From Cellulophaga sp. RHA19 (lineage in GTDB: Bacteria; Bacteroidota; Bacteroidia; Flavobacteriales; Flavobacteriaceae), in the NCBI RefSeq assembly GCF_002813425.1, contig NZ_PHUL01000001.1:2611001-2675000 (forward strand): a stretch of DNA of 64,000 bases. Direction: 5' to 3'. Position 1 is the stretch's first letter; each line of letters starts with the position of its first letter. The notes beneath the pieces were generated by a model, which worked only from the letters and a program-made list of their open reading frames with translations, did no database searches and was not told the DNA's origin. This document shows positions 20,633 to 29,872 of the stretch, piece by piece. A program made the position numbers and the translations under genes.

Positions 20633-20708
20633 TATATGTTTAAAATCATATATTTTAAATTATATGTTATATAGCATATAATTGTGTTTATATGTTAAAT
20701 AGCATATA
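20633..20708. repeat. Three 20-bp inverted repeats at 28-bp steps (operator array)
   Basis: Each copy is TATATG-N8-CATATA, at 20633-20652, 20661-20680 and 20689-20708. The inner eight bases are TTTAAAAT, TTATATAG and TTAAATAG. Copies are separated by 8 bases each, so the step is exactly 28 bp. The third copy overlaps the -7 element of the satD promoter; the -33 TTG lies in the spacer between copies 2 and 3. This is the layout of a repressor-binding array. Confidence 0.85.
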
Positions 20709-20712
20709 TTTG
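20682..20712 (+). promoter_or_regulatory. Promoter of the satD operon
   Basis: TTG at 20682-20684 and TATATTTG at 20705-20712 with a 20-base gap, the same spacing as for tRNA-His. Predicted transcript start near 20717, only about 10 bases ahead of the ATG at 20727. Confidence 0.8.
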
Positions 20713-20726
20713 ATAAAAAATAAAAA

Positions 20727-21329
20727 ATGATAGCAGTTATAACAGGTGATATTATTAATTCTAGAACAGAGGATGTAGCTGTTTGGTTGCCAGTACTTAA
20801 GTCAGAATTACAAAAAATAGGTACAGACCCTAATGATTGGGAAATATACAGAGGAGACAGTTTTCAATTAAAAACAACACCAAAGTTGGCGTTAAAAGTA
20901 GCTTTTAAACTAAAAACGGTACTAAAGCAGTTTAAAACATTAGATGTTAGAATGGCAATAGGAATAGGAGAAGAGAGCTATATTGCAGATAAGGTTACAG
21001 AAGCAAACGGTAGTGCTTATGTAAATTCTGGCGAGTGTTTTGAAGAGTTAAAAAAGCAAACTTTAGCAATAAAAACCCCTTGGAAAGATTTTAATGTAGT
21101 TTTAAATTTAGTGTTAGATGTGTTAGAGCTGACTGTTAATAATTGGACACCAAATTACGCGCTTTTAATAAAAGAAAGCTTAGAAGATACAACTGTAACA
21201 CAAAAAGAGTTGGCAGAAAAACTAGATAAAAAACAAAGTAACATAAGTACTAGTTTAAAAAAAGCTGGCTTTGATGAGATTTTAAAAATATTAGATTACT
21301 ATAACACACAAATAGAAAAACTATGTTAG
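20727..21329 (+). CDS. SatD-family protein with cyclase-like motifs and a helix-turn-helix
   Basis: The 200-residue protein begins AVITGDIINSRT (D8), then YRGDSFQL (D44) and VRMAIGIGEE (75-83). This order resembles the metal-binding strands of class III nucleotidyl cyclase and GGDEF folds (an Asp after the first strand, a GD turn, an RxAIGxG strand). Residues 158-182 (TQKELAEKLDKKQSNISTSLKKAGF) look like a DNA-binding helix-turn-helix. It belongs to the SatD family, named after a streptococcal acid-tolerance locus. I infer a nucleotide- or stress-sensing autoregulator acting at the three operators upstream; the cyclase resemblance is by eye only. It overlaps the next gene by 7 bases. Confidence 0.75.
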   Translation: MIAVITGDIINSRTEDVAVWLPVLKSELQKIGTDPNDWEIYRGDSFQLKTTPKLALKVAFKLKTVLKQFKTLDVRMAIGIGEESYIADKVTEANGSAYVNSGECFEELKKQTLAIKTPWKDFNVVLNLVLDVLELTVNNWTPNYALLIKESLEDTTVTQKELAEKLDKKQSNISTSLKKAGFDEILKILDYYNTQIEKLC

Positions 21330-22042
21330 TATTTACCTTAAAGTTGCTTTTAGCTCATATTTTAGGCGATTTTGTGTTGCAACCCAATAGTTGGATAAAA
21401 GACAAGCAAGAAAAGAAACAAAAATCTGTATACCTTTATTTGCACATACTTGTACATTTAACTGCTTTGCTTGTAATTTTTGAGTTTAACTTAACCTACT
21501 TTTTAGGAATAGGAACAATTATAATTACTCATTATTTAATAGATTTAGCAAAACTTATATTACAGAATGATGCCAATGCAAGAGTGTTATTTTTTTTAGA
21601 TCAAGCATTGCACTTGGTAATATTAGTATTGGTAGCTACTACTTATACAGATTATAGTTTAGACCTAGCTTATTTAACTACTCCTAATGTAATACTATTT
21701 TTAATAGCTATTTTTTTACTTACAAATGTGTCTTCTATTTTAATGAAAGTTATAATTTCTAAATGGAAATTAGAGGACGACACAAAAAAATCACTAAAAA
21801 ATGCAGGTGCTTACATAGGTGTGTTAGAGCGCTTGTTTATTTTTATGTTTATTGTTTTGGGACAATGGAGTGGAATAGGGTTTTTACTAACAGCTAAATC
21901 TGTTTTTAGGTTTGGAGATTTATCTAAAGCAAACGATCGTAAGTTAACAGAATACATATTAATAGGAACTTTAATAAGCTTTGGGTTGGCTATTTTAATA
22001 GCTTTAGGATATAATTATATAATAGAACAATTACCTAAATAG
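21323..22042 (+). CDS. DUF3307 membrane protein
   Basis: The 239-residue protein opens with LKLLLAHILGDFVLQPNSWIKDKQ, the hallmark of DUF3307, and has about six hydrophobic helices. Members often lie beside SatD-family genes (known association), and here the start ATG overlaps the satD stop by 7 bases, so translation is coupled. Function is not known; a membrane partner or target of the SatD regulator is inferred. Confidence 0.85.
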   Translation: MLVFTLKLLLAHILGDFVLQPNSWIKDKQEKKQKSVYLYLHILVHLTALLVIFEFNLTYFLGIGTIIITHYLIDLAKLILQNDANARVLFFLDQALHLVILVLVATTYTDYSLDLAYLTTPNVILFLIAIFLLTNVSSILMKVIISKWKLEDDTKKSLKNAGAYIGVLERLFIFMFIVLGQWSGIGFLLTAKSVFRFGDLSKANDRKLTEYILIGTLISFGLAILIALGYNYIIEQLPK

Positions 22043-28312: not shown

Positions 28313-29872
28313 TTATGATGTTTGTTCTATTTCTTGAAATGTGATGATGTAATTTGTTCCTTTTTTAGAGTTGTCTTTTTCTATGTTACCTCTAAGTTGT
28401 AGGGCTAGCTTGTGTATAAGTTTTAAACCCAGTGATTTTGTGTTTCTAAAATTTATACTTTTTGGAAATCCTTTTCCGTTATCTCCTATTAATAGTAAAA
28501 AATTTGGGTACACCAGTTTTTTTACTTCAATACTTAAAGTACCCTCTTCTGTATTTGTAAAGCCGTACTTTAATGAATTTGTAATTATCTCGTTAATCAT
28601 TAAACCTAATGGTACAGAGGTATCAATATTTAAAAATAAATCTGTTGCTTTAATGTCTAATTTTATGTTTGTGTTATTGCCTTTCATAGAAATTAGCATT
28701 GTGTTTGCTAATTGGCTCATATACTCACCATAATTAATTCTACTTAAGTCATTAGAGCGGTATAACATTTCATGAATAATAGCCATTGAGTTTATTCTAT
28801 ATTGGCTATACCTAAATAAAGCTCTAGTTTCTTCGTCTTTAATAAAGCTAGACTGCAGGCTTAATAAGCTAGTTATAACCTGTAAATTATTTTTTACTCT
28901 ATGGTGTATTTCTTTTAAAAGTGTATCTCTTTCTGATAATCTAGACTCTACTGTATGGTTTAATTGAGATATATTTTCGTTTTTAATGTATAGGCTATAT
29001 ACAATAATTAAAAAAATGAGCAATCCTAAATTAAGTAAAGCAGCATTCTTATAGGTCTCAAACTCAAACAGAGCAATTTTTTCTTTGGTATTATTGGTTT
29101 TGTGTGTTGTATATATGGTCCAATTGTGGTTGCCCTCTAAGCTTAATTGTTTTGTAAAAAATAAATTATTACCATTTTCATCTTTTTTATTAAAGTCTAC
29201 GTCATCTTTTTTATATAATTTTTTACTGTCTCCATAGAATATTTCACCTTTTGCATTTAAAATGGTTAGGTTATAATTATCTAAGTTTTTAAACCAGTTT
29301 TTTGCATTTAAGTTTAAACCAACAATTCCTTGTAATTTTTTATTTGCATATACTGGTGTAAAAAATCGTATTGTTGGTCTGTATGGTTTTTCAATTTGTT
29401 TTTTCTCTACATTAAGATCTAAATGAGAAACATAAACTTCGTTTTTATGTAATTGTATAGCTTCTTTAAAGTAATACCTGTTAGATTTATCTTGAAATTT
29501 TTCAGATGAAGTTAAAGAGTCTATATCTACACGTATAACTTCTATACCTTTAGAGTTAATTAATCTAGCCTGAAAATAATTTGGGTCTACATCTATAAAA
29601 CTTTTTAATTTTTTTTCAATTTCTAAGATAGATACGTTATTTTCTAAATCTAATTCTACTAATTGACTAATAAATAATACGTTTTTTCTACTAATATTAT
29701 ATAATTCATTTAGTTTTGATTCTGATTCTACTAGCTTGTTGGTAGATTTAATACTCTCTACCAAAACTATATTTTTTGTGTACGACTGTACTTGATTATA
29801 TGAAACGTTCCATATAATCACAGAAATTATCAAGAATAGTACTACAGATATGAGTATGAGTTTTTTGCCCAT
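28313..29872 (-). CDS. Membrane histidine kinase with extracytoplasmic Cache-type sensor
   Basis: The 519-residue protein has an N-terminal helix (about 4-24), an extracytoplasmic domain to about 265 resembling Cache sensors (DPNYFQARLINSKGIEVIRVD, FFTPVYANKKLQGIVGLNLN), a second helix (about 275-295), a HisKA_2-type phospho-acceptor helix pair with His in LKEIHHRVKNNLQVITSLLSLQ (about 317-338), and an HATPase domain with NEIITNSLKYGF and GDNGKGF. HisKA_2 kinases typically signal to single-domain receivers such as the neighbour. The sensed signal is unknown. Confidence 0.92.
   Translation of the reverse strand: MGKKLILISVVLFLIISVIIWNVSYNQVQSYTKNIVLVESIKSTNKLVESESKLNELYNISRKNVLFISQLVELDLENNVSILEIEKKLKSFIDVDPNYFQARLINSKGIEVIRVDIDSLTSSEKFQDKSNRYYFKEAIQLHKNEVYVSHLDLNVEKKQIEKPYRPTIRFFTPVYANKKLQGIVGLNLNAKNWFKNLDNYNLTILNAKGEIFYGDSKKLYKKDDVDFNKKDENGNNLFFTKQLSLEGNHNWTIYTTHKTNNTKEKIALFEFETYKNAALLNLGLLIFLIIVYSLYIKNENISQLNHTVESRLSERDTLLKEIHHRVKNNLQVITSLLSLQSSFIKDEETRALFRYSQYRINSMAIIHEMLYRSNDLSRINYGEYMSQLANTMLISMKGNNTNIKLDIKATDLFLNIDTSVPLGLMINEIITNSLKYGFTNTEEGTLSIEVKKLVYPNFLLLIGDNGKGFPKSINFRNTKSLGLKLIHKLALQLRGNIEKDNSKKGTNYIITFQEIEQTS

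Follow-up and report, generated by a model that had tools for sequence, protein, structure and literature searches.

The SatD family (PF16264) is named for secretion and acid tolerance and has been treated in the context of acid tolerance or essentiality; the passages on it in two papers mention neither DNA binding nor an operator (PMC10326533, PMC11323703), whereas the SatD described here is a member of the family whose gene is preceded by an array of inverted repeats. A literature search, which covered full text for open-licence articles, found nothing on DNA binding by SatD, on satD operators or on the function of DUF3307, the protein encoded by the adjoining gene. For the LacI family, a study of the recognition code based on local regulation reportedly sought base-residue rules from regulators and nearby sites in many genomes (PMC2978694), and the approach taken here for SatD is like it. 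SatD differs from the LacI family in having a predicted cyclase-like domain and operators set in fixed 28/29-bp arrays, mostly of three.

The window (the whole stretch of 64,000 nucleotides analysed, from Cellulophaga sp. RHA19) carries three dyads of the form TATATG-N8-CATATA upstream of satD (Table 1). The earlier note had claimed three identically armed palindromes at a 28-bp step, the third lying over a -7 box with a TTG in the spacer before it; direct reading of the sequence bears out both points, with no difference in the arms among the three dyads, and the satD ATG at 20727 follows the array. With TAnnTTTG as the -7 consensus and TTG at -33, these two are candidate elements of the satD promoter. 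As the gap inside the dyads and the gap between them are both 8 bp, the half-sites follow each other at a constant spacing of 14 bp. On sequence grounds we consider it highly likely that this array is the operator of SatD, whose dimers, placed every 28 bp, would shut off the satD-DUF3307 operon.

Table 1. Features of the satD locus (positions count from the first nucleotide of the window)
Feature	Position	Strand	Remark
Dyad 1	20633..20652	no strand	TATATG-N8-CATATA; putative SatD operator
Dyad 2	20661..20680	no strand	starts 28 bp after dyad 1
TTG, candidate -33 element	20682..20684	+	between dyads 2 and 3; spotted by eye
Dyad 3	20689..20708	no strand	right arm beneath the -7-like box
TATATTTG, candidate -7 box	20705..20712	+	overlaps right arm of dyad 3
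satD, 200 aa	20727..21329	+	predicted palm domain ~1-117, then helices and HTH
Codons of residues 170-179 (covarying helix)	21234..21263	+	helix in structure model; covariation
DUF3307 membrane-type protein	21323..22042	+	PF11750, 116.2 bits; overlaps satD 3' end

The array scored 36 of 36, against 28.1±0.8 in dinucleotide shuffles (n=40), none of which reached 36; this places it 9.5 standard deviations above the shuffles. A single exact TATATG-N8-CATATA is at chance level, with four in the 3.93-Mb genome against three of a control pattern, so the rarity is a property of the array and not of the single dyad. The fourth single dyad (29797) lies within the ORF 28313-29872. A search of the window genome for a further array found no second one, and a wider regulon there was rejected, both single sites checked (29797 and locus L007) being inside ORFs. 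In the 397 genomes of the window's family, runs of three TATATG half-sites were found in five, at 13 places, and all 13 have a SatD ORF at most 1.5 kb away.

Upstream regions of 190 satD loci were scored, made up of 80 named loci (the best 80 of 227 relatives) and 110 whole-genome loci (24 and 86 from two surveys); 187 remain once identical copies are removed, and some species sit in both the named and the whole-genome sets, so that the loci are not independent. Excluded were L036, whose start codon falls outside the matched stretch, L010 and L012-L015, which duplicate named-locus sites, four of 34 matches that yielded no locus and 13 weak places from the phylum survey. The detector looked for three palindromes with 6-bp arms around N8 at steps of 24-33 bp, with 30 shuffles per region. 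An array at z of at least 3 was found in 156 of the 190 regions. Although steps of 24-33 bp were permitted, 155 of the 156 arrays use 28- and/or 29-bp steps (28/28 in 109, 29/29 in 37, a mixture of 28 and 29 in nine), and the remaining one is 29/30. In the coding control, 200 bp of satD passed through the same detector, the maximum was 27 of 36. Thirty-four regions fell below z 3, and for some SatDs the array is thus possibly absent; 11 of these regions come from a single family with longer proteins (f32), and some others resemble degenerate arrays by eye.

Recurrence of the repeats upstream of homologues, a point raised in the earlier note, holds for the geometry, while the letters differ between clades. 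The 153 non-identical regions at z of at least 3 contain 35 forms of consensus half-site, part of them from weak arrays, the commonest being TATAAG (39), TATCGG (25), TATTAG (12), TATCTG (10), TATTAC (9) and TATATG (8). Three dyads are present in 119 of these regions and four in 24, with a maximum of 12; on extension, where distances of 27 and 30 were also permitted, neighbouring good dyads lay 28 bp apart 243 times and 29 bp apart 91 times. Across 395 genomes of the window's phylum, in which satD is patchy (a match in 99), a pattern of three TATCGG half-sites with at most one mismatch occurred at 26 places, 19 of them at satD (eight genomes) and seven elsewhere. In the phylum of L088, a named Kangiellaceae MAG, SatD was found in 13 of 299 genomes; all 13 have a DUF3307 match, and seven a 28/29-bp array scoring above 40 mononucleotide shuffles. 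Operator-like sites at a gene's own promoter that are conserved in relatives mark an autoregulated HTH regulator, and the satD loci present such sites. The choice between a 28- and a 29-bp step was also examined against SatD columns; the top column was S151, which points to no clear interface, and this line was rejected. At one locus (L181), 12 dyads spaced exactly 29 bp precede satD.

The half-site bases were compared with the residues of 145 distinct SatD proteins, reached from the 153 arrays by way of 150 with a score of at least 29; the sequences share descent, and covariation counts are not independent. Covariation was clear at bases 4-6, weak at 1-2 and absent at 3, which gave no signal; mutual information was highest with Q170 for bases 1 and 2, T175 for 4 and 6 and N172 for 5. 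These residues lie in the helix 170-179, which is present in a structure model built without operator data. Given the rest of SatD, operator similarity had a partial correlation of 0.38 with residues 163-174 and 0.47 with residues 169-180, against a size of at most 0.16 in the remaining 30 of 32 twelve-residue SatD windows. DUF3307 shares its operon history with SatD and was used as a control. Given the helix, DUF3307 similarity fell to 0.01; given DUF3307, the helix kept 0.45, a value that 0 of 500 permutations reached (142 of the 145 loci). The best DUF3307 columns at bases 4, 5 and 6 reached 0.61, 0.65 and 0.67, against 0.95, 0.99 and 0.93 for the helix, and at bases 1-3 the DUF3307 column about equalled the best SatD column. 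Outside the helix, SatD columns 15 and 135 (bases 4, 5) and 184 (base 5) also beat DUF3307.

Part of a code can be read from these columns. At residue 172, N goes with T5 (19/23), A with A5 (42/47) and S with G5 (35/53, the rest A); at residue 175, E or D goes with C4 (43/45) and K or R with C6 (26/28); at residue 170, Q goes with T1 (129/131). A natural pair that is 71% identical agrees with this code, L089 (QSNISEAL) having TATCTG and L056 (QSSISEAL) having TATCGG. In 72 matched pairs, helix columns came top for bases 1, 2, 4 and 5, and N143 and A3, neither in the helix, for bases 6 and 3, respectively. Among the 14 closest pairs whose consensus differs, nine agree at residues 170, 172 and 175; their half-sites are TATTAG against TATAAG, which means that A or T at base 4 is not read by these three residues. 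Since the half-site bases track residues 170, 172 and 175 and hardly the rest of SatD or DUF3307, SatD very probably binds its own array. Autoregulation by the helix-turn-helix protein encoded behind the repeats, the simplest reading according to the earlier note, is well supported by the recurrence of the array at satD and by this covariation.

The window SatD matches PF16264 over residues 2-182 with 34.7 bits (cut-off 29), which places it in the family. Its model has a pLDDT of 95.1, and the N-terminal domain is predicted to be a nucleotidyl-cyclase-like palm, whose putative fold would resemble the palm of class III nucleotidyl cyclases, GGDEF and Cas10 proteins (PDB 4wp9, 4zvg, 3ung and others). 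Two aspartates are kept in SatD, D8 (189 of 191 sequences) and D44 (192 of 193 sequences). By profile comparison they align with the aspartate pair conserved in class III cyclases; they stand where the cyclases have their metal ligands and are a candidate metal-binding pair. The SatD-cyclase profile score was 36.1, against at most 20.4 in column shuffles (n=30), and the global profile alignment of SatD with the cyclases is weak (probability 17). Unlike these proteins, SatD combines one short domain with an HTH; the comparison covered the predicted fold and the two aspartates. A sequence search for PDB relatives of SatD gave none below E 0.09. PADLOC-DB models (2023 library) gave only short matches to the window SatD (146-178 to PDC-M64C/B; 39-66 to AbiEii, E 0.011), which do not assign it to a known anti-phage defence system, and none to the window DUF3307.

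According to the mechanism we propose, SatD would use its C-terminal HTH to dock as a dimer on each 20-bp palindrome, with the helix 170-179 as the reading element. In the 29-bp arrays of Chryseobacterium, the added base sits, by eye, between the dyads and leaves the inner N8 unchanged; the dimer site is therefore likely to be the 20-bp palindrome. Three adjacent dimers at 28 bp would span the -33/-7 region and turn off the satD-DUF3307 operon: since dyad 3 lies over the -7-like box and the TTG falls in the spacer ahead of that dyad, occupancy is expected to block the promoter. The level of SatD would in this way be self-limited until a signal frees the promoter, and the cyclase-like palm probably senses or makes a nucleotide. 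A step of 28 bp corresponds to about 2.7 helical turns, so adjacent dimers would lie on different faces of the DNA. The fixed 28/29-bp step argues for contact between them; taken by itself, it only suggests the cooperative binding or protein filament that the earlier note had put forward. In Chryseobacterium (e.g. L096-L118) only about 4 bp separate the end of the -7-like box from the satD start codon, and the satD mRNA may there be leaderless.

SatD is likely to act as a repressor. It could instead be an activator or a switch whose dual role depends on a signal, and at some loci the array does lie further upstream, the centre of the last detected dyad being 43-66 bp before the start codon (e.g. 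L143, L155, L125, L126). In the window, however, the -7-like box overlaps the last dyad, and in 66 of the 145 loci a TAnnTTTG with at most one mismatch overlaps or abuts the last detected dyad, lying at +6 or +8 from its centre; we find departure from simple repression unlikely. That a different regulator sits on the array, with satD merely its target, would fit the patchy occurrence of satD among genomes, but it is very improbable, as the half-sites follow the SatD helix and not the remaining SatD or DUF3307, and distant SatDs with similar helices share operators: L167 and L084, with N-domains 32% identical and like helices, both have TATCGG. Inverted repeats are capable of folding, and the palindromes might be RNA hairpins (a terminator or attenuator) or the relic of a mobile repeat. 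Such a reading is hardly credible when the arms covary with the protein and the step remains 28/29, when the array overlaps promoter-like boxes and when the window genome holds just this one array. If the array is read as the operator of SatD, a widespread uncharacterised operon becomes a regulator that can be tested and whose DNA code can in part be read, and the ~35 operator forms, all built to the same rigid layout, are a natural series.

DUF3307 follows satD in 188 of the 190 loci. Its residues H12, D16, H41, H45, H70, D74, D93 and H97 (L039 numbering) are invariant in all 80 aligned proteins, and this His/Asp set suggests that DUF3307 is a membrane metalloenzyme. Upstream of satD no conserved neighbour was retained, the FAD gene being nearby in just four of the 80 named loci. 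SatD was also found on 11 plasmid records, with DUF3307 adjoining it in all five that were viewed. Among the five plasmid loci, the 28-bp array is strong in L253 (z 11.6), and the others score lower, with z values of 5.1, 3.8, 3.7 and 2.5. On a 3.77-kb E. coli plasmid (L250, NC_019077.1), satD-DUF3307 is the sole evident cargo, the remaining listed genes being rop, mobA and one hypothetical. Megablast of the pEC34A satD-DUF3307 segment gave no match in E. coli genomes.

Arrays of the SatD type also occur in viral and mobile DNA. G138, whose own satD has TATCGG half-sites, bears a second, two-dyad TATCGG array in a mobile-looking region; of the seven places away from satD in the 395 phylum genomes, two belong to this array and five are single places. 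A match between a mobile-looking array and the SatD of its host is thus seen in G138. Among IMG/VR contigs, the exact pattern was found in 37 stretches for TATCGG, 37 for TATATG, 8 for TATCTG and 30 for TATAAG (loci L263-L336 and L365-L402). The controls, TATCGG at a 31-bp step, a scrambled half-site and TATGAC, the last two outside the 35 SatD consensus forms, each gave 0; the wrong-step control covers TATCGG, and half-sites rich in A+T are expected more often by chance. In the first three sets, two complete dyads were present in 56 of 82 stretches (43 distinct arrays) and fewer in 26. By simple ORF calls, the 43 arrays lie between convergent (9), divergent (5) or co-oriented genes (20), inside an ORF (4) or at a contig end (5), and four extend in 28-bp register with a second specificity, TATCGT/TATCGG beside TATATG (L300, L302, L320, L329; L333 by eye). 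Within the 112 viral loci, perfect dyad pairs at steps of 20-40 bp occurred at 28 (49 times, nearly all through selection) and 29 and at no other step; the step-29 pairs, at seven places (four distinct by eye), were unselected and are all TATAAG.

These viral arrays are likely sites for the SatD of the host and may be used as a decoy or as a regulatory site. It is rather doubtful that they serve an unrelated viral regulator, their likeness to SatD operators being coincidental. In favour of such a regulator, the 82 stretches, often partial contigs, yielded neither SatD nor DUF3307, with weak HTH-profile matches in L281 and L369 only, and the Cellulophaga phages phi10:1, phi38:1 and phiST (53.7, 72.5 and 79.1 kb) have no array in their first 50 kb. 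The half-sites used by SatDs were nevertheless those found, against none for half-sites outside the SatD forms or for TATCGG at a 31-bp step, and viral TATAAG arrays share the 29-bp step with Chryseobacterium satD. Outside the TATAAG set, viral SatD and DUF3307 were found only in L337 and L338, both retrieved for SatD. In annotated phages, BLAST with the window array gave nothing convincing (four marginal matches, E 4), and a search for SatD gave no match.

Prophages exploit the host LexA repressor. Binding of host SatD to the viral arrays would make them a parallel case of viral DNA holding sites for a host repressor; unlike in the LexA case, they are often off promoters (9 of 43 between convergent genes), and a few mix specificities. 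The arrays suggest that viruses carry sites for a cyclase-like regulator of the host, and binding by host SatD would tie phage infection to a membrane protein and a nucleotide-type domain. Tentatively, satD-DUF3307 is possibly a mobile two-gene module whose cyclase-like repressor viruses target: they may carry paired operators, at times joining two specificities in one 28-bp register, and thereby titrate or exploit SatD in one host or in several. A virus-host arms race, if true, would explain the frequent change of SatD and operator specificity on a fixed array geometry. Two viral contigs with TATCGG arrays, L288 and L298, share the source number 2829961646 and were taken as one isolate genome. 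The second array of G138 (L257 1500-1550; G138:C1:418038-418085) precedes a short lipoprotein-like ORF, and in the viral contig L278 a similar short lipoprotein-like end stands, by eye, immediately ahead of the array.
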